Assembly (NCBI GenBank): GCA_900315125.1 | Contig: OMXT01000085.1 | Coordinates: 1 to 61,711 of the forward strand | Length of the DNA: 61,711 bases | Direction of reading: 5' to 3' | From: an uncultured Eubacteriales bacterium | GTDB lineage: Bacteria; Bacillota; Clostridia; Peptostreptococcales; Anaerovoracaceae | In this document: one piece after another, positions 649 to 11,458 of the stretch | Layout of the letters: each line of letters starts with the position of its first letter | How positions within the stretch are numbered: the stretch's first letter is position 1 | The notes under the pieces: generated by a model | Databases searched by the model: none | Told to the model about the DNA's origin: nothing | The model's input: the letters and a program-made list of their open reading frames with translations, nothing else | Position numbers and translations under genes: made by a program

Positions 649-3381
649 ATGAGCTACTATAACAAGACACCGGAAAAGATCATGCTGGAGTTCGGCTATT
701 GCAGGCAGCCGCAGGGGCAGGGCACAGCCCAGCAGGTCAGCGGGGAGAAAGGCTCTACACAGCCGCAGGGCACAGCGCAGGCAGTCGGCGGGGGGGAAGT
801 TTTCTCGGAAGGGCGGAAATTGGAGCAGCACCCGGTCCCGGTCCAGCCAGTCAGCTGGGAAGACGGCCTTAGCGAGGATCAGATCCGGAGCAGCCGAAAC
901 AAATACGGCAGCAATAAGCTTCAGGAGAAAAAGAAGAAAAGCAAGCTGCAGATCTTCGCGGAGCAGTTTAAGGATCTTCTGGTGATCATCCTGATCGTGG
1001 CGGCTCTGATCTCAGCGGCGACGGGGAGCATGGAGAGCACGGTGGTCATCATCGCCGTGCTGATCATGAATGCCATCCTGGGCACGGTTCAGACAATCAA
1101 GGCGGAGAAATCGCTGGAAAGTCTGAAGAAGCTCAGCTCCCCCACGGCCAAGGTAATCCGGGGCGGACAGCATCTTGTCATTCCTTCCGAGGAACTGGTC
1201 TGCGGGGATATTTTCCTGCTGGAAGCGGGAGATGTGGTGCCGGGAGACGGACGCATCATAGAGATTTATTCCCTGAAGGTCAATGAGAGCGCCCTGACCG
1301 GCGAGTCAGAGGCGGCGGAAAAGAGCGACGAACTGATAGATGAGGAGAAGGTCGCACTTGGGGATCAGAAAAACATGGTATTCTCCGGAACGCTGATTAC
1401 TTACGGCCGGGCAACGGTGATCACCACCGGCGTCGGACCCAGGACGGAGCTGGGCCGCATCGCGGGACTGATGAACGACACCAGTGAGCGCAAAACGCCG
1501 CTGCAGATCACCATGGATAACTTCAGCAAGCGGCTTTCCATCGGCATCATCCTGATCTGCCTCGCGGTGCTGGGTCTGAGCCTTTACCGGGGCATGCCGG
1601 TGCTGGACGCCATGCTCTTTGCCGTAGCTCTGGCAGTAGCGGCGATCCCGGAGGCGCTGACGTCTATCATCACCATATCGCTGGCTATCGGTACGTCCCG
1701 CATGGCGGAACACAACGCGATCATCAAGCAGCTGGAGGCAGTGGAGGGCCTGGGATGTGTTTCTGTCATCTGTTCCGATAAGACGGGAACACTGACTCAG
1801 AACCGCATGACCGTAGAGCACGAGCTGCCCTGGAAGGACGGCAGGGAGGAGATGCTCCGGGCATCCATCCTGTGCAACGATACCCGGGAGGCAGAAGGCC
1901 AGCTTGTGGGAGATCCCACCGAGACAGCCTTTGTTGCATACTATAAAACCCAGAGGGATGACTACGATCAGGTTATGGAAGACCTGTGGCGGCGCAGCGA
2001 GGTCCCCTTTGATTCGGACCGGAAGCTTATGAGCACGCTGCACAAGATCGGGCCCAAGTATGTCATGTATACCAAGGGCGCCCTGGACGTGATCCTGGCC
2101 AGGGCGGTCAATCTGACGGAGGAGGAAAAGAAGCAGGTCGCCCGACAGAATTACGACCTTTCTAACGACGGCCTGCGGGTGTTGGCCTTTGCACGCAAGG
2201 TCTATGATGACAATATCCAGCTGACGACGAACGAAGAATTCGATCTGGAATACCTGGGACTCATGGCTGAGGTGGATCCGCCCCGGCCGGAGTCGGCCCA
2301 GGCGGTGCAGGACTGCATCGCTGCGGGAATCAAGCCGATCATGATCACCGGGGATCATAAAGTCACGGCTTCCGCCATTGCCCGGAGGATCGGCATCATG
2401 AAGGAAGGGGATCTGGCAGTTACCGGGCCGGAGCTGGACGAGATGAGCGAGGATCAGCTCAGCGAGAAGCTGGAGCATATATCGGTGTACGCCCGTGTTT
2501 CCCCGGATAATAAGATCCGGATCGTCCGGGCTTGGCAGGAGAAGGGATCTATCGTAGCCATGACCGGCGACGGCGTCAATGACGGACCGGCGCTGAAGAG
2601 CGCCGATGTGGGCGTGGCTATGGGCATTACGGGAACAGAAGTGGCCAAGGACTCCGCGTCCATGATTCTGACGGACGACAACTTCGCCACGATCATCAAG
2701 TCTGTGCTGAACGGCAGAAACATCTATGCCAATATAAAGAATGCCATCCAGTACCTGCTGTCAGGCAACGCGGCGGGGATCATCGCGGTCCTCTATGCCT
2801 CCCTGATGGCACTGCCCATGCCCTTTACGGCAGTGCAGCTTTTGTTTATCAACCTGATCACAGACAGCCTGCCGGCACTGGCCATCAGCATGGAGCCTTC
2901 CAATCCGGCGCTGATCCACGACAAACCGAGACCGCGGGACGAGTCGGTGCTGAACGGTCAGACACTGAAGGAAGTCTGCGTTTACGGCATCCTCATTGCG
3001 GCGGCGACGATTGCGGCATATACCATCGGCCTGGGTGCCGGCATCGACGGCGTAGCGGCGGACGGCGTCAAGCTGGGAAGCGTGACGGCGTCCACCATGG
3101 CATTCTCCACGCTGTGTCTCGCACGGCTGTGGCACGGGTTCAACTGCAGGGGAAGAGAGAGCATATTCAAGCTGGGGCTGACAAGCAACATTTACACGAT
3201 CGGGGCTTTCGTGCTGGGGGCGCTGCTCCTGCATCTGCTCCTTCTCGTTCCGTTCCTCTCTCACCTGTTCAGCATCACACCGCTGGATCCTCATCTGCTG
3301 GGATGGGTATGGCTGCTTGCTTTCCTGCCTACGGTGGTGATCCAGATCATCAAGACGGTGAAATACAGGAATGAGGAATAA
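649..3381 (+). CDS. P-type cation-transporting ATPase (Mn2+/Ca2+ exporter type)
   Basis: This is a P2-type ATPase of 910 residues that pumps a divalent cation across the membrane at the cost of ATP. It has TGES (217-220, actuator domain), PEAL (334-337, M4 cation site), DKTGT with the phosphorylated D377, and TGDGVND (639-645), followed by the C-terminal membrane helices. The M4 motif PEALTSI, rather than PEGLP, is as I recall it in the YoaB/CaxP branch that exports Mn2+ or Ca2+. Control by a Mn2+ riboswitch supports manganese detoxification. The start has the SD aggaggga (638-645). The first ~75 residues are an extra Gln/Gly-rich segment with the repeated word QPQGTAQ/QPQGQGTAQ, not part of the usual fold. 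Substrate is inferred, not read directly. Confidence 0.9.
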   Translation: MSYYNKTPEKIMLEFGYCRQPQGQGTAQQVSGEKGSTQPQGTAQAVGGGEVFSEGRKLEQHPVPVQPVSWEDGLSEDQIRSSRNKYGSNKLQEKKKKSKLQIFAEQFKDLLVIILIVAALISAATGSMESTVVIIAVLIMNAILGTVQTIKAEKSLESLKKLSSPTAKVIRGGQHLVIPSEELVCGDIFLLEAGDVVPGDGRIIEIYSLKVNESALTGESEAAEKSDELIDEEKVALGDQKNMVFSGTLITYGRATVITTGVGPRTELGRIAGLMNDTSERKTPLQITMDNFSKRLSIGIILICLAVLGLSLYRGMPVLDAMLFAVALAVAAIPEALTSIITISLAIGTSRMAEHNAIIKQLEAVEGLGCVSVICSDKTGTLTQNRMTVEHELPWKDGREEMLRASILCNDTREAEGQLVGDPTETAFVAYYKTQRDDYDQVMEDLWRRSEVPFDSDRKLMSTLHKIGPKYVMYTKGALDVILARAVNLTEEEKKQVARQNYDLSNDGLRVLAFARKVYDDNIQLTTNEEFDLEYLGLMAEVDPPRPESAQAVQDCIAAGIKPIMITGDHKVTASAIARRIGIMKEGDLAVTGPELDEMSEDQLSEKLEHISVYARVSPDNKIRIVRAWQEKGSIVAMTGDGVNDGPALKSADVGVAMGITGTEVAKDSASMILTDDNFATIIKSVLNGRNIYANIKNAIQYLLSGNAAGIIAVLYASLMALPMPFTAVQLLFINLITDSLPALAISMEPSNPALIHDKPRPRDESVLNGQTLKEVCVYGILIAAATIAAYTIGLGAGIDGVAADGVKLGSVTASTMAFSTLCLARLWHGFNCRGRESIFKLGLTSNIYTIGAFVLGALLLHLLLLVPFLSHLFSITPLDPHLLGWVWLLAFLPTVVIQIIKTVKYRNEE

Positions 3382-3441: not shown

Positions 3442-3470
3442 TTGATTTCCCCAAAACCATATGTTATGGT
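3442..3470 (+). promoter_or_regulatory. Promoter of the aromatic amino acid operon
   Basis: TTGATT (3442-3447) and TATGGT (3465-3470) are 17 bp apart. The predicted start near 3476 leaves about 17 nt before the leader-peptide ATG, containing the SD-like aaagaaagg (3482-3490). Confidence 0.55.
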
Positions 3471-3492
3471 TGTAGAGTAATAAAAGAAAGGC

Positions 3493-3594
3493 ATGGATCA
3501 GACAATGATGAATTTCGCATTTGCAGCAGAATATTATTATTACTACTTTTTCTTTAACAAGAAGAAGGACGTTTTGCTGCAAGGATCGAGATAA
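3493..3594 (+). CDS. Tyr/Phe-rich leader peptide of the aro operon attenuator (33 aa)
   Basis: This short gene encodes a 33-residue peptide with the uninterrupted run EYYYYYFFFN. The Tyr codons are at 3532-3546 (tat tat tat tac tac) and the Phe codons at 3547-3555 (ttt ttc ttt). Two more Phe codons precede the run, and there is no Trp codon. The stop is TAA at 3592-3594. It lies between a promoter and a strong terminator, immediately before aroF and the operon containing tyrA and pheA. This is the architecture of amino-acid attenuation leaders such as pheL or trpL: stalling on uncharged tRNA-Tyr or tRNA-Phe should permit readthrough. The peptide itself probably has no other job. Two in-frame ATGs (3505, 3508) are alternative starts that keep the run. 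Confidence 0.88.
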   Translation: MDQTMMNFAFAAEYYYYYFFFNKKKDVLLQGSR

Positions 3595-3663
3595 GGTCTG
3601 GAGTGCTTTCGGAAGATTATGTTAATCGGAGCCCCGCAGCAAGACGCTGCGGGGCGTTTTTTT
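3572..3663 (+). terminator. Attenuator: antiterminator segment plus intrinsic terminator
   Basis: The terminator has a perfect 10-bp stem, gccccgcagc (3631-3640) with gctgcggggc (3646-3655), a 5-nt loop and a T-run to 3663. A competing element, ttgctgc (3574-3580), is complementary to gcagcaa (3636-3642) and can be extended by a G-U and an A-U pair to 3572/3644. A ribosome stalled on the Tyr/Phe run (3532-3555) would leave 3572-3580 free to form the antiterminator; one reaching the stop codon at 3592 would cover it and allow termination. Confidence 0.8.
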
Positions 3664-3708: not shown

Positions 3709-4710
3709 ATGATTACGGTTTTAAAGGCAGGTACAACAGAAGAACAGAAAAGGATGCTGATCAAGTGGTTCGAAGATCAGGGGCTCCGGGTCACGGAATA
3801 TCAGGACGGGGACCAGACGGTGCTGGGACTGATCGGCGATATCAGCAAGATCGATGTGGAGATGCTGGAACTGCTGGATATCGTGGATCACGTGGCGCTG
3901 GTTTCGGAACCCTTCCGCAAGTCCAACCGGAAGTTCCATCCGGAAGATACCATCGTGGACGTGAACGGCGTTAAGATCGGCGGCGGGAACTTCGCGGTTA
4001 TCGCAGGACCCTGCTCGGTAGAGACGGAGGACCAGATCATAGAGGTCGCAGAGGCGGTGAAGAAGTCCGGGGCTACGCTGCTCCGGGGCGGCGCGTTCAA
4101 GCCCAGGACATCCCCCTATGATTTCCAGGGACTGAAGGCGGAGGGACTGCGGCTGCTGATGGAGGCGAAGCGGGTCACCGGTCTGCCGATTGTCACTGAG
4201 ATCATGAACCAGGATCATCTGGAACTCTTCGAGGATGTGGATGTGATCCAGGTCGGCGCGCGGAACATGCAGAACTTTGAACTGCTGAAGGAACTGGGCA
4301 AGCTGAAGAAGCCGATCCTCCTGAAGAGAGGCCTGGCCAATACCATCAAGGAGCTGCTCATGAGCGCCGAGTACATTATGTCCAACGGAAACGAAAACAT
4401 CATCCTCTGCGAAAGAGGTATCCGGACATTCGAGACCTACACCAGAAATACCCTGGATCTGTCCGTGATCCCGGTGCTCCACAAGCTGACCCATCTGCCG
4501 GTCATCGTCGACCCCAGTCACGCTACCGGCCATTCGGACCTGGTGGAGCCAATGGCAATGGCAGCCACAGCCGGAGGCGCCGACGGTCTGATGATCGAGG
4601 TCCACAACAATCCGCCCATGGCGCTGTGCGACGGAGCTCAGTCACTGACGCCGGCGGAGTTCGACGATACGATGCAGAAGGTCCGCAGGATCCGCGAAGT
4701 GGTACAATAG
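3709..4710 (+). CDS. aroF: 3-deoxy-7-phosphoheptulonate (DAHP) synthase
   Basis: This enzyme condenses phosphoenolpyruvate and erythrose 4-phosphate to DAHP, the first step of the shikimate pathway. The 333 residues have an N-terminal ferredoxin-like (ACT-related) regulatory domain (~1-70) joined to the catalytic barrel, as in the Thermotoga type. The barrel carries GPCSVE with C102, RGGAFKPRTSPYDFQG and DPSHATGHSD. The start at 3709 follows the SD cggagg (3695-3700). An upstream in-frame ATG at 3619 would run through the terminator and is rejected. It is the first structural gene behind the Tyr/Phe attenuator and is probably also feedback-inhibited through its N-terminal domain (family knowledge). 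Confidence 0.95.
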   Translation: MITVLKAGTTEEQKRMLIKWFEDQGLRVTEYQDGDQTVLGLIGDISKIDVEMLELLDIVDHVALVSEPFRKSNRKFHPEDTIVDVNGVKIGGGNFAVIAGPCSVETEDQIIEVAEAVKKSGATLLRGGAFKPRTSPYDFQGLKAEGLRLLMEAKRVTGLPIVTEIMNQDHLELFEDVDVIQVGARNMQNFELLKELGKLKKPILLKRGLANTIKELLMSAEYIMSNGNENIILCERGIRTFETYTRNTLDLSVIPVLHKLTHLPVIVDPSHATGHSDLVEPMAMAATAGGADGLMIEVHNNPPMALCDGAQSLTPAEFDDTMQKVRRIREVVQ

Positions 4711-4741: not shown

Positions 4742-5611
4742 ATGGTTGTTGGTATCGTAGGACTTGGACTCATCGGCGGCTCCCTTGCTAAGGCATATAA
4801 GGAAGCGGGGGCCACGGTTTACGGGAAGGATACAAACGAGCTTGTCCAGCAGTTTGCTCTGATGGCGGAGGCAATCGACGGGGAACTGGATGACCGTACG
4901 ATCGGGGAATGCGACCTGATTCTCATCGCGGTCACGCCTCACAGCGCCGTCGCGTGGTTTACGGAAAACGCGCCGAAGATCGACAGGCGCACGATCACGA
5001 TCGACTGCTGCGGAACCAAGAGATATGTATGCCGCCATAACTTCCAGACGGCGGAGAAATACGGGCTGATCTATATGGGCGGCCATCCCATGGCAGGAAA
5101 AGAGCGGGGCGGGTTCAAATACAGTTCCGAGGATCTTTTCCGCAACGCGCCCTTTATCCTGGTTCCGGAGAAATGCGACAATATGGAGCTGATGGAGAAG
5201 GTCAAGAAGATGATCATGACGGCGGGCTTCGGCAGAGTCGGCGTTACTACGCCGGAGGAGCATGACCGGGTCATCGCCTTCACATCCCAGATGCCCCACG
5301 TGGTGTCCAATGGATTTATAAAGAGCGATACAGCTCTCGTGGACAGCCAGATGATCTCAGCGGGCAGTTATCAGGACTTCACCCGGGTCGCTTACCTGGA
5401 TGAGAAGATGTGGTCCGAACTCTTTCTTGAAAACCGCGACAACCTGATGCAGGAGATCCACCGGCTGATCTCGTCTCTGCAGGAATACGAGAACGCTCTG
5501 CGGGACGAAGATCGTGAGCAGCTGGAGAAGCTTCTGGCAGACGGCAAGGCAGCCAAGACGGCTGTCCTTGAAAAATGCGGGCCGGAGCAGATGAACGGAG
5601 AAGGACGATGA
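4742..5611 (+). CDS. tyrA: Prephenate dehydrogenase
   Basis: It oxidatively decarboxylates prephenate to 4-hydroxyphenylpyruvate, the tyrosine branch. The 289-residue protein begins with an NAD(P)-binding GLGLIGGS motif (7-14), and HPMAGKERGG supplies the probable catalytic His (H115). No C-terminal ACT domain is evident, so allosteric Tyr control must come from elsewhere; the leader-peptide attenuator could supply it. The SD gaggtga precedes the ATG. The stop overlaps the aroA start (ATGA), indicating translational coupling. Confidence 0.93.
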   Translation: MVVGIVGLGLIGGSLAKAYKEAGATVYGKDTNELVQQFALMAEAIDGELDDRTIGECDLILIAVTPHSAVAWFTENAPKIDRRTITIDCCGTKRYVCRHNFQTAEKYGLIYMGGHPMAGKERGGFKYSSEDLFRNAPFILVPEKCDNMELMEKVKKMIMTAGFGRVGVTTPEEHDRVIAFTSQMPHVVSNGFIKSDTALVDSQMISAGSYQDFTRVAYLDEKMWSELFLENRDNLMQEIHRLISSLQEYENALRDEDREQLEKLLADGKAAKTAVLEKCGPEQMNGEGR

Positions 5612-6879
5612 GCATATCGATCGACATCATTCCGTCCAAATCCTACGCTCATCGCCAGCTGGTCGCCGCAGCCCTTTCTGAAACACCCTGCAGTGTGGTG
5701 TGTGATTTCGCTTCCGAGGACATCGAGGCAACGAGAAAATGCCTGGCGGCGCTGGAGCCTTCTCTTTCGGGTCGGTCCGGGAACAAAGGCCTCACTGCCA
5801 GCGCCCCGGAAACAGACAGCATATGCACGCTTCCCTGCGGCGAAAGCGGATCTACGCTGCGGTTTCTGCTCCCCCTGGCAGGGGCTCTGGGAACTAAGGC
5901 CCGGTTCCTGACGCAGGGCAGACTGGCGGAGCGGCCCATGGATCCCCTGAGAGATGAACTGACCGTTCACGGATGTTCTCTCAGCGAACCGGGTGTTTCA
6001 CCTATTACTATTGAAGGGCAGTTAACGCCGGGGACGTATATGCTCCCGGGAAACGTATCCTCCCAGTTTATCACAGGGCTTCTCCTGGCGCTGCCTCTCC
6101 TGAAGAAAAAGAGCACTCTGGTCGTCACGGGGAAACTCCAGTCATCGCCTTATATCGACATTACGCTGGATGTGCTGAAGCAGTTCGGGATACAAATCGA
6201 GCAGGAAGTCCGCGAGAGCGGGCGGACATATGAGATCCCGGGGAATCAGCATTACCAGGGTCCGGAGCGGGTTATCACGGAAGGCGACTGGTCCGGCGCA
6301 GCCTTCTGGCTTGCAGCCGGCGCCATCGGCAGCGAGGCTGTGACCGTAAGAGGGCTGAATCCCCATTCTATGCAGGGAGACCGGCGGATCGCGGATGTGC
6401 TGAAGGATTTCGGCGCTTCGGTATTATGGTCGGAGGGAGAGATCACTGCAGAACCGTCGCATCTTCATGGAATCACTGTCGATATCTCAGAAATACCGGA
6501 TCTGGCGCCGGCTGTTGCACTGACAGCGGCTGTTGCGGAAGGCACGACGAGGATCGTCAACGGTCTTCGCCTCCGCATGAAGGAAAGCGACAGGATCCGG
6601 TCGATCTGCGCATCCCTGAAAGCCCTTGGAGCAGACATTACCGAAGAACCGGAGGGCATGACGATCCAGGGGACCGGCGGCAGACCGCTGGAGGGCGGAG
6701 CATGTGACTCCTTCGGCGACCACCGGATCGCCATGATGGAAGCTATCGCTTCGCTGGTATGCAGGAATCCCGTGAACGTTTCTGGAAGCGAAGCGGTCCG
6801 CAAGTCTTATCCCGGATTCTTCCAGGTCATGGAGGAGAAGGGAATGGCGGAGAACCTGAGAGCGGAAGAAATGAGGTAG
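5608..6879 (+). CDS. aroA: 3-phosphoshikimate 1-carboxyvinyltransferase (EPSP synthase)
   Basis: It transfers the enolpyruvyl group of PEP to shikimate 3-phosphate. The 423-residue protein has the N-terminal PSKSYAHR motif (K11), CGESGSTLRFLLPLAG in the PEP-binding region, RMKESDRI and the C-terminal DSFGDHRIAMM. The start at 5608 overlaps the tyrA stop and has the SD ggagaagg. An in-frame ATG at 5575 would lie inside tyrA without a ribosome site. The G-x-S-x-T segment reads GESGSTLR rather than the GNSGTTxR of E. coli, as in class II-like enzymes, so glyphosate tolerance is possible but not shown. Confidence 0.94.
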   Translation: MSISIDIIPSKSYAHRQLVAAALSETPCSVVCDFASEDIEATRKCLAALEPSLSGRSGNKGLTASAPETDSICTLPCGESGSTLRFLLPLAGALGTKARFLTQGRLAERPMDPLRDELTVHGCSLSEPGVSPITIEGQLTPGTYMLPGNVSSQFITGLLLALPLLKKKSTLVVTGKLQSSPYIDITLDVLKQFGIQIEQEVRESGRTYEIPGNQHYQGPERVITEGDWSGAAFWLAAGAIGSEAVTVRGLNPHSMQGDRRIADVLKDFGASVLWSEGEITAEPSHLHGITVDISEIPDLAPAVALTAAVAEGTTRIVNGLRLRMKESDRIRSICASLKALGADITEEPEGMTIQGTGGRPLEGGACDSFGDHRIAMMEAIASLVCRNPVNVSGSEAVRKSYPGFFQVMEEKGMAENLRAEEMR

Positions 6880-6881
6880 TT

Positions 6882-7865
6882 ATGTCATCAACGTTTGGAA
6901 ACAGAATCATCGTTTCTATCTTCGGAGAGTCCCACGGACCGGCTATCGGCGTGAATATCGACGGTCTTCCGGCAGGGCTTGCTGTGGATATGGACGCGCT
7001 GCAGGCTTTTCTGGACCGGCGGGCGCCGGGTCGGAACCGGTATTCAACGCCGAGAAAAGAAAGTGATCGGCCGACATTCCTGGCAGGAATCCGGGACGGT
7101 GTGACCTGCGGCACACCGGTGACGGCAGTGATCATGAATGATAACACCCGCTCCAGGGATTATGAGCAGATGAAGGATATCCCGAGGCCGGGACACGCGG
7201 ATTACGCTGCCCATATCAAATATGGAGGATATGAGGATTACCGGGGCGGCGGGCATTTTTCCGGGCGGCTGACAGCGCCCCTATGCATTGCCGGAGGCAT
7301 ATTTATCCAGGCTCTGGAGGCGAAGGGGATAAGGATCCAGGCCCGCATCCTGGAGATCGGCGGAAACCGGGAGGATCCCTGGGGCGAGATCGACCGCGCG
7401 AGAGAAGACCAGGATTCTGTGGGGGGCATCATAGAATGCACGGTCACAGGTATGCCTGCGGGCATCGGGGATCCCATGTTCGACGGTATGGAAAACCGGA
7501 TCGCCGCGGCGGTATTCGCCATCCCGGCAGTCAAGGGAATCGAGTTCGGCAGAGGATTCAACGCAGCCAGGATCCGTGGAAGTGAAAATAACGACGCTTT
7601 CTGCTATAAAGGCGAAAAAGTAGAAACAGTGACGAATAATCACGGAGGGATCCTGGGAGGTGTAACAAGCGGAATGCCCGTCGTATTCCGCGTGGCGTTT
7701 AAACCGACGCCCTCCATAGGAAAAGAACAGGACAGCATCAGTTATTCAAAGAAGAGCAGCGTAAAGATGGTTGTCACCGGGAGGCATGATCCCTGTATCG
7801 TGCCCCGGGCGGTCCCCTGTGTGGAGGCAGCGGCAGCGATCGCCATCGGTGACTTCATTATATAA
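6882..7865 (+). CDS. aroC: Chorismate synthase
   Basis: It converts EPSP to chorismate with reduced FMN as cofactor. The signature segments GESHGPAIGV, RPGHADYAAHIKYG, YRGGGHFSGRLT and GGVTSGMPVVFRVAFKPTPSIG are intact, as is the late GRHDPCIVPRAVPCVEA. At 327 residues it is somewhat shorter than the usual 350-390, but both ends look complete. The start at 6882 lies 2 nt after the aroA stop, with the SD gaggtag overlapping that stop. The flavin reductase needed to supply FMNH2 is not encoded nearby. Confidence 0.95.
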   Translation: MSSTFGNRIIVSIFGESHGPAIGVNIDGLPAGLAVDMDALQAFLDRRAPGRNRYSTPRKESDRPTFLAGIRDGVTCGTPVTAVIMNDNTRSRDYEQMKDIPRPGHADYAAHIKYGGYEDYRGGGHFSGRLTAPLCIAGGIFIQALEAKGIRIQARILEIGGNREDPWGEIDRAREDQDSVGGIIECTVTGMPAGIGDPMFDGMENRIAAAVFAIPAVKGIEFGRGFNAARIRGSENNDAFCYKGEKVETVTNNHGGILGGVTSGMPVVFRVAFKPTPSIGKEQDSISYSKKSSVKMVVTGRHDPCIVPRAVPCVEAAAAIAIGDFII

Positions 7866-7913: not shown

Positions 7914-9065
7914 ATGAGCGCAAATAAGGAAATCAGTGACTATCGCAGCAGGATCGACGCCGTTGACCAGGAAATCATGAAAAAGCTCGAGGAACGCCTT
8001 GACCTGGCCCAGAAAGAAGCAGAACTCCGCCAGGCAGAGGGACTGCCCATAGAGGACCTCATCGGGGAGAGGGCGCGCCGGGAGGAAATCACCCAGAATG
8101 CGCCGGAAGATATGGCAACTTACGAAAAATTGATGTACAATACAATAAGTGAGCTTTCCCGTGATCACCAGCGCAAGGTTGTCGTAGAGGACACGCCGCT
8201 TGTCAAGTCGATCCGCGAGGCCCAGAAGAATACACCCAAGGTGTTTCCGGAACGGGCTGTGGTCGCGTGCCAGGGCGTGCAGGGAGCGTATCAGCAGCAG
8301 GCATGCGACCGGCTGTTTTCCATGCCGAAGATCCTCTATATGAAGAACTTCAACGGTGTATTCGCCGCCATAGACCAGGGACTGTGCCAGTACGGCGTAC
8401 TGCCGCTGGAGAACAGCACGGCAGGTTCTGTAAACTCTATTTACGACCTGATGGCGAAATACAACTGTTATATCGTACGCAGCGTACGGCTGAAGATCAA
8501 CCACTGCCTGCTGGCCAAACCCGGCGTGCGCATTGGGGACATCCATGAGATATATTCTCATGAACAGGCGATCCTGCAGTGCGAGGATTACCTGAAGAAC
8601 TTCTCCGATTTAAAGGTCACAGAGTGCCCCAACACCGCAGTTGCGGCGGAGATGGTCGCCAAATCGGATCGGAAGGACGTGGCAGCCCTCGCGTCACTGG
8701 AATCCGGACAGCTCTATGGTCTGAACTGTATAGAGGAATCCGTGCAGGACAACGGCAATAATTACACCCGGTTCATCTGCATCAGCAAGAAACTGGAGAT
8801 CTATCCGGGAGCGAACAAGACGAGCCTTCTGCTCTCTGTTGCCCATAAGCCCGGCGCCTTGTACAGCGTGCTTTCCAGGCTGTATACGCTGGACATCAAC
8901 ATGAGCAAACTGGAGTCGAGACCCATTCCCGACCGGGACTTTGTTTACCGCTTCTATTTCGACATTGAGGCGGAGGCATACTCGGACAAGTTCATCCGCC
9001 TGATGAACCAGACGGAGCAGATCAGCGAGGATCTTCGTTATCTGGGCAGCTATAATGAGGTTTAA
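7914..9065 (+). CDS. pheA: Bifunctional chorismate mutase / prephenate dehydratase (P-protein)
   Basis: It carries chorismate through prephenate to phenylpyruvate, the phenylalanine branch. The 383 residues have three parts: an AroQ-type chorismate mutase helix bundle (~1-90, beginning YRSRIDAVDQEI), a prephenate dehydratase domain (~110-290) with the NYTRF motif, and a C-terminal ACT domain (~300-380) carrying the ESRP motif associated with Phe feedback binding. The SD agaggagaa precedes ATG 7914. It sits in the same transcript as tyrA, so both terminal branches share the Tyr/Phe leader control. Confidence 0.94.
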   Translation: MSANKEISDYRSRIDAVDQEIMKKLEERLDLAQKEAELRQAEGLPIEDLIGERARREEITQNAPEDMATYEKLMYNTISELSRDHQRKVVVEDTPLVKSIREAQKNTPKVFPERAVVACQGVQGAYQQQACDRLFSMPKILYMKNFNGVFAAIDQGLCQYGVLPLENSTAGSVNSIYDLMAKYNCYIVRSVRLKINHCLLAKPGVRIGDIHEIYSHEQAILQCEDYLKNFSDLKVTECPNTAVAAEMVAKSDRKDVAALASLESGQLYGLNCIEESVQDNGNNYTRFICISKKLEIYPGANKTSLLLSVAHKPGALYSVLSRLYTLDINMSKLESRPIPDRDFVYRFYFDIEAEAYSDKFIRLMNQTEQISEDLRYLGSYNEV

Positions 9066-9074
9066 TGAGGTATT

Positions 9075-9347
9075 ATGGATCTCAGCGATTACAGAAAAGA
9101 AATAGACGCGGTTGACAGAAAGCTGGTGGAGCTCTTCATCAGAAGGATGGAGATCGCGTCATCCATTGCGGAGTACAAACGGGAGCACGGAATACAGATC
9201 CTGGACTCTTCCAGGGAGCAGGAGAAACTTGACGCAGTGAGCAGACAGGCCGGGGAAGCGATGGCGCCTTACATCCGGGAACTTTTTTCCCGGACCATGG
9301 AAGTGAGCCGAAATTATCAGAGTGGTATTATGGAACGGAGGGAATGA
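9075..9347 (+). CDS. Stand-alone chorismate mutase, AroQ type
   Basis: This 90-residue all-helical protein (YRKEIDAVDRKLVELFIRRM near the N-terminus) is the AroQ chorismate mutase fold, making prephenate from chorismate. It is a second mutase besides the PheA domain just upstream and could supply prephenate to TyrA, which has no mutase domain of its own. It starts 9 nt after pheA. It shares the conserved first-helix R, the IDAVD turn and a later helix with the PheA domain, so it may be an old duplicate. Confidence 0.88.
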   Translation: MDLSDYRKEIDAVDRKLVELFIRRMEIASSIAEYKREHGIQILDSSREQEKLDAVSRQAGEAMAPYIRELFSRTMEVSRNYQSGIMERRE

Positions 9348-9350
9348 TCC

Positions 9351-10541
9351 ATGGCTAAGTTCGGGCTGATCGGGGAGAGACTGGGACACAGTTTTTCTCC
9401 TCTGATTCACAGCAAACTCGGTGATTATGAGTATGTTCTCTGTGAGACGGAAGAGGCAGGTCTGCCGGCGCTGCTGGCGGACAGAGAATTCCAGGGGTTC
9501 AACGTGACGATCCCATATAAGAAAAAGGTCATGGAGCTGTGCGACGAGGTTTCCAGCGAGAGTGTCCGGATCGGCTGTGTTAATACAGTGGTCCGGGAAG
9601 AAGACGGAAAACTCCACGGCTACAACACCGATTACTTCGGTTTCCGCTACCTTATGGAAGAGAACCAGATCGATCCCGGCGGGCGGAAGTGCCTTGTGCT
9701 GGGGAGCGGCGGCGCTTCTCTGACCGTGCGCACCGTACTCGCTGATCTGGGCGCTCGGGAGATCGTTATCATCAGCCGCAGCGGTCCGGATAACTACGAC
9801 AATCTGGACAAGCATTACGACGCGGATATCATCGTAAATACCACGCCCGTGGGCATGTTCCCGGATAATCTTTCTTCGCCCATCAGCCTCTACGGGTTTA
9901 AAAACCTGCGGGGCGTTGTGGATGTGATCTACAATCCCCATAATACCAAGCTTGTACTTTCAGCCATGAAGAAGGACATACCCAGCGCCGGAGGACTGGA
10001 CATGCTGGTAGCCCAGGCATGGCAGGCCAGCATGCTCTTTGAGGGTACAGACTGCGACCGCAGCGAGATCCGCGACGTGGTCAACGAGGTGCTGGACGAG
10101 ACCAAGAACACCATCCTGATCGGCATGCCGGGAGCGGGTAAGACATTCCTGGGAAGGAAAATGGCAGAGAAGGATGGAAAGGAATTCCTGGACATCGATG
10201 AGATGATCGAGGAGCATGAGGGATGCAGCATCCCTGAGATCTTTAAGAATAAAGGCGAAGATTATTTCCGCAGCATAGAGACGCAGATGTTCGATCTGGC
10301 CTGCCGGCGCCAGGGTGTCGTAATCGCGGCGGGAGGCGGCATCATAAAAAGAGAAATCAACCACGATATCGCCCGGCAGAACGGCGTAGTGATCTGGGTC
10401 AAGCGGGATCCGGACAAGCTGGAGACCAACGGCAGACCCCTGTCTCTGACCACGCCGCTGGACCAGATGTACGCGGAGCGGAAAGACGCCTACGAGCGGT
10501 GGAGCGATTTCTTCATCGATAATAATCAGGAGCTGGATTGA
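9351..10541 (+). CDS. aroE-aroK: Fused shikimate dehydrogenase - shikimate kinase
   Basis: One 396-residue protein performs two consecutive steps: reduction of 3-dehydroshikimate to shikimate and its 3-phosphorylation. The AroE part (~1-250) has SFSPLIH (substrate-binding serines), NVTIPYK (catalytic K57), YNTDYFGF and the NADP loop GSGGAS. The AroK part (~253-396) has the Walker A GMPGAGKT (258-265), DIDEMIE, YFRSIE, AAGGGI and the lid NGRPLS. Both halves look catalytically complete. The start 3 nt after the mutase gene and the 1-nt overlap (TGATG) with aroQ point to tight coupling. The fusion order follows the pathway order. Confidence 0.93.
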   Translation: MAKFGLIGERLGHSFSPLIHSKLGDYEYVLCETEEAGLPALLADREFQGFNVTIPYKKKVMELCDEVSSESVRIGCVNTVVREEDGKLHGYNTDYFGFRYLMEENQIDPGGRKCLVLGSGGASLTVRTVLADLGAREIVIISRSGPDNYDNLDKHYDADIIVNTTPVGMFPDNLSSPISLYGFKNLRGVVDVIYNPHNTKLVLSAMKKDIPSAGGLDMLVAQAWQASMLFEGTDCDRSEIRDVVNEVLDETKNTILIGMPGAGKTFLGRKMAEKDGKEFLDIDEMIEEHEGCSIPEIFKNKGEDYFRSIETQMFDLACRRQGVVIAAGGGIIKREINHDIARQNGVVIWVKRDPDKLETNGRPLSLTTPLDQMYAERKDAYERWSDFFIDNNQELD

Positions 10542-11458
10542 TGAAAATACTTGTCATGAACGGTCCGAACCTTAACATGCTGGGCATTCGGGAACCGGAT
10601 ATTTACGGACAGAAGAGTTATCAGGACCTGATTCACTTTATTCAGGGAGCCGCGGCGGCTCTCGATGTGGATGTGGACTTTTACCAGTCCAATCACGAGG
10701 GGGACCTGGTGGACGCCATACAGGAAGCCTACGGCGTATATGACGGCATCGTGATCAATCCCGGCGCTTACACTCATACAAGCGTTGCGCTGCTGGACGC
10801 GGTCAAGGCGGTTGCAATCCCAACGGTTGAAGTGCATATATCCCATGTAGACGAGAGAGAAGCATTCCGTCAGGTGTCCTATATCCGCAGGGCGGCGCTG
10901 GCAACCATCACAGGTATGGGATTCCAGGGCTATGTAGAGGGGATCAAAGTCCTGATTGGCCGTTCTTCTGCGCCTGCGGGAGCGGAGGAGAACCCTTCCG
11001 ATGTTCGCGGAGGATCCATGGACCTCATCCCCTTCGCTGTGATACAGAAGGAACTGCAGCCAGATTACGATCCTCCCGCGCCTCCGGCTATGGACGTCAT
11101 CCCGTTCCATGCCATCCAGCAGGAGCTGCAGCCCGGATATTCGCGGGCAGAGGAACCTGTGGCTGTACCGAAAGAACCTGCAGAAGACCCGACGGCTCTC
11201 CAGTACCTGTTCGCTGTACAGCCTGGCAGGACATATCAGGTCATGATCGAAGAGCTGGATCCTGAGTATCTCTTTACAGTCCAGCCTCCTCTGACCGATC
11301 ATGTGTTTATCCGTGAGCCCCGCGAGCCGAGGCAGCTTGAGTATCTGTTTACAGCTCAGCCGGCATCTCCCTGGCTGATCCGGGGATTTGCAGAAGAAGA
11401 GGAGAACCAGGGACCTGAGATCGACGACGCGGATATCCTTGCTCTTTTCGGAAAATAA
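10541..11458 (+). CDS. aroQ: Type II 3-dehydroquinate dehydratase with long repeat-bearing C-terminal tail
   Basis: Residues 1-141 are a complete type II dehydroquinase, making 3-dehydroshikimate: NGPNLNMLG at 7-15 (near the N-terminus), the catalytic Tyr region (Y22), the NPGAYTHTS loop (73-81) and the conserved VEVHISH (97-102). The family normally ends near residue 145-150. Here about 164 residues continue in frame, acidic and Pro/Gln-rich. They contain two copies of a 17-residue unit (MDLIPFAVIQKELQPDY at 160-176; MDVIPFHAIQQELQPGY at 184-200), three copies of a 9-residue unit (LQYLFAVQP 220-228, PEYLFTVQP 241-249, LEYLFTAQP 266-274), and a DDADILALFGK end. The tail matches no domain I know and looks like repeated short linear motifs. 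ATG 10541 is chosen over TTG 10538. Confidence 0.9.
   Translation: MKILVMNGPNLNMLGIREPDIYGQKSYQDLIHFIQGAAAALDVDVDFYQSNHEGDLVDAIQEAYGVYDGIVINPGAYTHTSVALLDAVKAVAIPTVEVHISHVDEREAFRQVSYIRRAALATITGMGFQGYVEGIKVLIGRSSAPAGAEENPSDVRGGSMDLIPFAVIQKELQPDYDPPAPPAMDVIPFHAIQQELQPGYSRAEEPVAVPKEPAEDPTALQYLFAVQPGRTYQVMIEELDPEYLFTVQPPLTDHVFIREPREPRQLEYLFTAQPASPWLIRGFAEEEENQGPEIDDADILALFGK

Follow-up and report, generated by a model that had tools for sequence, protein, structure and literature searches.

A putative tyrosine- and phenylalanine-reading leader-peptide attenuator ahead of an aro operon in Anaerovoracaceae and its relatives in Clostridia

Introduction

The aro operon of an uncultured Eubacteriales bacterium (Anaerovoracaceae, Clostridia) is, with a probability that we put at about 0.88 on the grounds of sequence comparison, headed by a classical ribosome-mediated transcription attenuator that would read two amino acids, tyrosine and phenylalanine. 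The window, as the term is used here, is the whole stretch of 61,711 nucleotides that was analysed (assembly GCA_900315125.1, contig OMXT01000085.1, forward strand), in which the leader region occupies the gap between a long open reading frame at 649-3381, presumably a P-type ATPase, and aroF, which begins at 3709. The comparison covers conservation of the leader, its reading frame, the terminators that follow it, the pairing of segments with their own partners, their spacing, and the relation between the codon mix of the leader and the content of the operon. Leader-peptide attenuation is a textbook mechanism in Proteobacteria and is known in Actinobacteria; for the amino acid genes of Firmicutes, control is commonly attributed to T-boxes, leaders that sense tRNA charging and control termination before such genes. 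In E. coli, pheL reads Phe, and the Tyr genes are under the control of TyrR.

The leader open reading frame

The features of the leader region are as follows, in window coordinates.

3442..3470, + strand: promoter-like site, recognised by eye (TTGATT 3442-3447, 17 nt, TATGGT 3465-3470, TG extension 3462-3463)
3486..3491, + strand: Shine-Dalgarno-like GAAAGG of the leader, by sequence; a similar element occurs in relatives, e.g. L105
3493..3594, + strand: leader peptide ORF, read from the sequence; 33 codons is its largest reading, with a TAA stop at 3592-3594
3520..3532, + strand: segment 1, which pairs with segment 2 (anti-antiterminator), from the fold and the own-partner pairing test across loci
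3532..3546, + strand: five Tyr control codons, TAT TAT TAT TAC TAC
3547..3555, + strand: three Phe control codons, TTT TTC TTT
3571..3583, + strand: segment 2 (GTTTTGCTGCAAG), from the fold and the own-partner test; its part 3571-3580 forms the antiterminator's 5' arm
3636..3645, + strand: segment 3, the 3' arm of the antiterminator, from the fold and the own-partner test; it overlaps the 5' arm and loop of the terminator
3631..3663, + strand: intrinsic terminator with a T7 tract (hairpin 3631-3655, T7 3657-3663), from scan and fold

The ORF at 3493-3594 translates as MDQTMMNFAFAAEYYYYYFFFNKKKDVLLQGSR*, with 33 codons if the start is placed at 3493, and its stretch 3532-3555, upstream of aroF (3709), encodes the run YYYYYFFF, whose nucleotide pattern (TAY)5(TTY)3 has a single occurrence in the 2.3-Mb assembly, against 0 for the reversed control pattern. 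The five Tyr codons followed by three Phe codons thus stand as described in the original prediction, but its length of 33 codons probably does not: a start at 3505 or 3508, giving 29 or 28 residues, is preferred because relatives begin there and because GAAAGG, the sole SD-like stretch seen, lies only 1 nt before ATG 3493. Relatives from the genus open at the equivalent of 3505/3508, for example at that of ATG 3508 in MNRFAFAAEYYYYYFFF (L105) and MQRFAFTAAYYYYYFFF (L121). From GAAAGG to ATG 3505 and ATG 3508 the distances are 13 and 16 nt, which is long for SD spacing, and in L105 the same element sits 12 nt 5' of the leader start. The promoter-like site is weak by consensus, and is absent from the list produced by the consensus scan.

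The operon downstream

Pfam identifies eight proteins of the aromatic pathway downstream of the leader.

3709..4710, + strand: aroF, DAHP synthase, the first gene (DAHP_synth_1)
4742..5611, + strand: tyrA, prephenate dehydrogenase (PDH_N, PDH_C)
5602..6879, + strand: aroA, EPSP synthase, start approximate (EPSP_synthase)
6882..7865, + strand: aroC, chorismate synthase, start approximate (Chorismate_synt)
7914..9065, + strand: pheA, chorismate mutase-prephenate dehydratase (CM_2, PDT)
9075..9347, + strand: a separate second chorismate mutase (CM_2)
9351..10541, + strand: aroE-aroK fusion (Shikimate_dh_N, SKI)
10538..11458, + strand: aroQ, type II dehydroquinase, much extended at its C-terminus (DHquinase_II, residues 3-139 of 306)

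Both terminal branches, tyrA and pheA, are present as had been expected, while the designation of this cluster as a whole aro operon was slightly too strong, aroB not being among the eight proteins by Pfam. The extension of AroQ comprises approximately 165 residues after the dehydroquinase domain and carries short repeated motifs, such as PFAVIQKELQP/PFHAIQQELQP and YLFAVQP/YLFTVQP.

Terminator and competing pairings in the window

The stem of the terminator at 3631-3655 has 10 pairs, 9 of them GC, which bears out the perfect 10-bp hairpin proposed earlier, and its fold of -23.9 kcal/mol (z -6.5) is equalled by 0 of 200 shuffles. A loose terminator scan of the 1.5-kb stretch found 1 site, and by itself is no evidence, because 1.3 are expected by chance; the case is carried by the strength of the hairpin (z -6.5) and by the comparisons among loci. 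The antiterminator is also recovered, and in the fold of 3561-3645 it extends from the nine pairs first proposed (3572-3580 with 3636-3644) to ten (3571-3580 with 3636-3645), the folded stretch as a whole not being unusually stable (z -1.48; 17 of 200 shuffles as good). A third pairing, of which there was no mention earlier, joins 3520-3532 to 3571-3583 through 13 pairs, and is predicted to be the element that completes the switch. Nested within it is the hairpin 3546-3554:3559-3567, which contains the Phe codons (z -5.4), these being the control codons nearest segment 2. When 3514-3657 is folded as one piece (z -5.6), it forms the hairpin 3520-3532:3571-3583, a weak hairpin, and the terminator.

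Distribution of the leader among relatives

The stretches upstream of 189 DAHP synthase genes were compared, namely that of the window (L001), those of 80 named loci (the best 80 of at least 593 DAHP synthase relatives), 29 from a family search, and 79 fetched by hand from the family list; two of them (L034 and L091) were dropped as too short and nine near-duplicates were removed, leaving 178. A leader was defined as an ORF of 8-60 codons within the last 400 nt, with at least 6 Tyr/Phe per 10 residues. By this rule one lies upstream of DAHP synthase in 126 of the 178 de-duplicated loci, as against 5 on the reverse strand and a mean of 2.0 in dinucleotide shuffles (five per stretch); this fraction is not a prevalence, the loci having been selected for similarity to the window. 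Among 190 pairs of residues, it is Tyr with Phe that tops the enrichment, with 124 observed against 2.7 in shuffles and 5 on the reverse strand. Of the 124 runs used for codon counts, 120 hold both residues, 1 Tyr only and 3 Phe only. Two candidates, L056 and L106, were judged by eye to be the C-terminal coding sequence of pheA and are rejected as leaders, as is L018, which lies below the cut; the former two are counted in the 126 and excluded from the 124 runs.

The nearest named DAHP synthase among the best 80 of at least 593 relatives is that of Aminicella lysinilytica (Anaerovoracaceae, Clostridia), at 81% identity; in one genome of the same genus (G142, L088) the upstream stretch nearly duplicates that of this species, so that the window belongs to the genus of A. 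lysinilytica as the genus is delimited in the search. In line with the expectation that Tyr/Phe coding would be kept while codons drifted, 12 of the 14 assessable genomes of the genus retain a Tyr/Phe-dense leader, and its third bases drift; G004 and G239 have none by this rule. In this set G276 was cut at a contig edge and G281 was left out; L187 ended at the contig edge.

A phylum-wide sample was drawn from 178 genomes with a search match, taking 60 genomes at one or two per family and one DAHP synthase each. Here a leader is present in 12 of 60 genomes and 11 of 58 families (reverse strand 1, shuffles 0.9), a count that includes the doubtful-looking L206 and is a lower bound, since many genomes have several DAHP synthases and a few matches started after residue 1. 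The idea that the leader is present throughout the phylum is thus ruled out, and its known range comprises 33 numbered genera of one family (own count) together with the 11 of 58 further families sampled. Several of the records come, by their titles, from gut or rumen samples.

Eleven loci (L005, L006, L016, L033, L036, L049, L060, L067, L071, L074 and L075) carry the labels Treponema(taceae), Bacteroidaceae, Lentisphaerae, Oligosphaeraceae, Thermoguttaceae or Sutterella, and 7 of them have a leader by the same rule (L016, L033, L036 and L074 do not); either these are misbinned contigs, or the aro cluster with its leader has spread to other phyla. In one subgroup the leaders (L160, L170, L182) have a common GLF..FTGYF tail, and for two genomes of this subgroup, G056 and G178, a search extending over 9 kb turned up no tyrA and no pheA.

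The switch across loci

A script located a terminator between leader and gene in 119 of the 126 loci; it returned none for L025, L054, L084, L100, L102, and the coding matches L056 and L106, and in L084 a terminator is visible by eye. In these 119 loci, the 60 nt that follow the run form a duplex with the 5' part of their own terminator at a mean of -14.9 kcal/mol, as opposed to -10.9 with permuted partners (z -16.4; 0 of 10000 permutations as low), and the 60 nt ending at the end of the run pair preferentially with the next 60 nt of the same locus (z -22.9; 0 of 10000). A control stretch upstream of the leader lacks such an own-partner excess in the same 119 loci (z -1.0; 1637 of 10000), so that shared base composition is an unlikely reason for it. 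In most cases the own partner is surpassed by at least one other: its median rank falls in the best 11% of 119, the window ranks 3, and ranks as poor as 72 to 99 occur in L003, L020, L026, L063, L126 and L161. Arms that have changed together include AAGTAATTTGTGC with GCACGGATTACTT (L005), GCTTTGTGCTGC with GCTGCACGAAGC (L019), and GAGTTTGCTGCA with TGCAGTGAAACTC (L163).

The core of segment 2, sought with a word list within 75 nt of the run in 124 loci, was found in 86, where it starts a median of 19 nt past the last control codon (10-90% range 14 to 23.5). Its frames relative to the run number 38, 26 and 22 and the core therefore occurs in all three, which indicates that segment 2 is kept as nucleotides and not as amino acids; in 30 of the 86 loci the leader stop precedes it.

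These elements suggest how the switch could operate, leader translation, ribosome stalling, termination in vivo and the role of both amino acids as inputs being the parts that we infer. With Tyr-tRNA and Phe-tRNA both charged, the ribosome would proceed to the leader stop codon, segment 2 would either be covered or pair again with segment 1, and formation of the terminator (3631-3655) would turn the operon off. If either tRNA were short, the ribosome would stall at a Tyr or a Phe codon, so that segment 1 would be covered or separated from segment 2, and the freed segment 2 (3571-3580) would pair with segment 3 (3636-3645); no terminator would form, and the operon with both terminal branches would be transcribed. 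A ribosome stalled on a Tyr codon would cover segment 1; one stalled on a Phe codon would have segment 1 immediately behind it and segment 2 immediately in front, both too close to it to pair with each other. The spacing suggests that segment 2 would be free for segment 3 in either stall, in which case the leader would work as an OR gate, a shortage of Tyr or of Phe being enough.

Leader composition and operon content

The genes tyrA and pheA (prephenate dehydratase) were sought by tblastn, which misses those beyond approximately 9 kb or too divergent. The idea that composition follows operon content arose from inspection of a first set, in which 63 loci had a leader (score at least 5; L018 and L056 excluded), and 14 of the 63 were set aside where a contig end lay within 6 kb downstream and both genes were not seen. 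The mean Phe share of the leader was 0.69 where pheA was found without tyrA (n=4), 0.55 with both (29), and 0.38 where tyrA was found without pheA (10), with uncorrected Mann-Whitney p values of 0.036 (pheA-only versus both), 0.0004 (tyrA-only versus both) and 0.008 (pheA-only versus tyrA-only). A second set was fetched afterwards, and consists of 40 hand-picked leader-bearing loci with enough downstream contig, other fitting loci having been excluded; its means were 0.84 (3), 0.53 (26) and 0.36 (8), with p values of 0.011, 0.018 and 0.018. Where neither gene was found, the spread was wide, around means of 0.47 for six loci in the first set and 0.46 for three in the second. Averaged over clusters of DAHP synthases, the contrasts give p values of 0.002 to 0.006 at 80% identity and 0.006 to 0.017 at 75%; at 70% (14 cluster-class values) significance is lost (p 0.12 to 0.74), the order of the means being unchanged.

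Individual cases lie at both extremes: two genomes of one genus (G032, G108) have Phe-only runs before pheA operons in which tyrA was not found, and another (G031) has a leader without Phe before tyrA, pheA not being found. In two exceptions (G479 and L022) tyrA was found and pheA was not, yet Phe exceeds Tyr. By these comparisons, the Phe share of the leader tends to follow operon content, with exceptions. Since the leader is kept in many relatives and its Tyr/Phe mix tends to match the operon, it very probably senses shortage of either product.

An attenuator of the same kind could have one amino acid alone as its real input, which we consider unlikely. Such is the report for Corynebacterium glutamicum, whose AroR leader, according to a review (PMC11802643), responds to Phe and not to Tyr, so that Tyr codons need not mean Tyr control; the position of the Phe codons nearest segment 2 would also fit. 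On the other hand, both residues occur in 120 of 124 runs, and the leaders of tyrA operons in which pheA was not found are Tyr-rich on average, that of G031 being without Phe, from which it follows that Tyr must matter in at least some of them.

T-boxes and other RNA regulators

It is highly improbable that a T-box or a metabolite riboswitch is in control, with the Tyr/Phe run incidental. In the leader region no match to an Rfam family attains the gathering score, and no T-box (RF00230) appears there at E values up to 5. At that same limit, Thr_leader is the sole amino acid leader listed, scoring 16.1 bits where the cut-off is 55, and the five other families listed are likewise sub-threshold; the missing match to an Rfam leader is no argument against an attenuation mechanism. 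Furthermore, the tests of frame and composition point to translation, and T-box matches are found elsewhere in the genome of the window, nine of them at eight places, all under the Rfam gathering score and none at aroF. They precede trpE, thrS, ileS, a TrpB-like enzyme, asparagine synthase, a Na/solute symporter and a subunit of a 2-oxoacid oxidoreductase, names that, trpE apart, are best NCBIfam matches, most pieces being cut by the end of the locus and several scoring under the curated cut-off; the eighth place, by eye, precedes a leuA-like gene. The T-boxes of this lineage seem to be poorly covered by the Rfam cut-off. The hisG stretch of the same genome has no Rfam match at E up to 0.001. 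Within L111-L118, the loci from this genome, the T-box matches combine low E-values with scores below gathering.

What speaks for T-box control is its presence before some DAHP synthase genes that lack the leader: a sense T-box was found in 2 of 20 examined out of the 52 leaderless family loci (L176, L188), and in 2 of 20 examined out of the 48 leaderless loci of the phylum sample (L239, L241). Near two of these T-box-bearing loci lies a tRNA gene, at 659-731 in L176 and 631-703 in L188, on the strand opposite to the T-box.

Translation of the run as codons

In 128 loci the Tyr/Phe-dense stretch was located without requiring an ORF, and an SD-like site with an open start leads into the run in frame in 92 of them, as compared with 3 and 0 in the other two frames; 35 loci have no such site and start by this rule. 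Third bases are mixed, with TAT 236, TAC 275, TTT 360 and TTC 103 over the runs of 124 loci. In 19 aligned eight-codon runs from close relatives, T/C changes occur in the third base of codons 1, 2, 3, 4 and 6, codons 5, 7 and 8 being fixed; this alignment was picked by amino acid pattern, so that fixed first and second bases are uninformative and only third-base changes count. Pairing of the run and the sequence around it with downstream stretches is indeed seen, as would be the case if the run were kept merely as RNA, as the strand of a hairpin, and not as codons; the frame preference (92 versus 3 and 0), the mixed T/C third bases, and a Tyr/Phe ratio that tracks operon content make this scarcely credible. 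That the run is a chance AT-rich stretch beside an ordinary terminator, Tyr and Phe codons being AT-rich, can be dismissed as negligible in view of the reverse-strand and shuffle controls (126 versus 5 and 2.0; 124 versus 5 and 2.7).

Attenuation by a translated Tyr/Phe leader, as originally proposed for the window, thus agrees with the terminators, the antiterminator, the reading frame, and the composition of leaders in relation to operon content, and remains the putative mechanism preferred here.

Relation to known systems

An aroR leader before aroF of Corynebacterium glutamicum was reportedly the subject of work by Neshat et al. in 2014. As described, AroR is a Phe-Tyr-Phe leader peptide that acts by attenuation on an operon with aroF (PMC11802643, PMC4046766). 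The likeness to the window lies in a leader peptide with Phe and Tyr before aroF and in attenuation; by its description, the system differs in belonging to Actinobacteria, in having three control residues named as opposed to eight here, and in that Tyr is without effect. In a study of five genomes, Clostridium novyi among them, Stav et al. 2019 (PMC6429828, Fig. 6b) depict a pair of candidate uORFs, located at shikimate genes and notable for Phe and Tyr, which, from that description, could be of the same family as the leader of the window. A further uORF beside a terminator upstream of aroF, uORFC-13-1, comes from Acholeplasma and environmental sequences (PMC8632094); it differs in that a U run codes for at least one Phe, no Tyr being reported in its description. 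The same paper recalls that attenuation of E. coli aroF was hypothesised earlier, and for Shewanella aroF an 'attenuator sensing tyr-tRNA' has been put forward, citing 1980 work on E. coli aroF-tyrA (PMC2659441). The Shewanella proposal is alike in that a DAHP synthase gene would be regulated at the RNA level through Tyr-tRNA, and differs in concerning Gammaproteobacteria and in a description without a Tyr/Phe run or terminator. The E. coli pheL-pheA attenuator (PMC11802643), which also precedes a gene of the aromatic pathway, shares the leader peptide, alternative hairpins and terminator, and differs in that Phe is read.

Within Firmicutes, a 2010 paper describes His leaders in bacilli and calls them the first leader peptide system beyond Proteobacteria and Actinobacteria, the ermC leader apart (PMC2965389), and a leucine-rich attenuator peptide has been reported in Staphylococcus aureus (PMC5794164); both, as described, are likewise leader attenuation in Firmicutes, and they differ in the amino acids and operons concerned. 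A T-box is reported at the tyrosine operon of the B. cereus group (PMC2494555). T-box leaders differ in having no leader peptide, and in the genome of the window a T-box match is found before trpE instead.

The original prediction knew of no combined Tyr/Phe attenuator in Clostridia, and searches of open-licence papers yielded no description of a Tyr/Phe leader family in Clostridia, of the three-segment switch, or of the match between codon mix and operon. The claim to novelty narrows, nevertheless, given the Phe-Tyr-Phe leader before C. glutamicum aroF and the Phe/Tyr uORFs of Stav et al. 2019, as far as these are described. The leader of the window would appear, from the comparison of loci, to be a widespread new form of a known kind of control.

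Biological meaning

In the window's genome a leader that would respond to two amino acids is placed on the first step of aromatic synthesis, and T-boxes exist beside it. We lean towards the view that Tyr/Phe leaders exert a major, tunable control on the shikimate pathway across much of Clostridia, in the place that T-boxes hold elsewhere, and that their Tyr/Phe mix evolves to match the terminal branches present (tyrA, pheA, or both). The leader would then be an OR gate with inputs that track the genes of its operon, Trp being left to the separate T-box of trpE. The correlation between codon mix and operon constitutes a natural experiment on the number of control codons that a sensor requires and on the way in which it retunes, and the codon mix itself offers a guess, from sequence only, at the aromatic product that an operon is built to supply.
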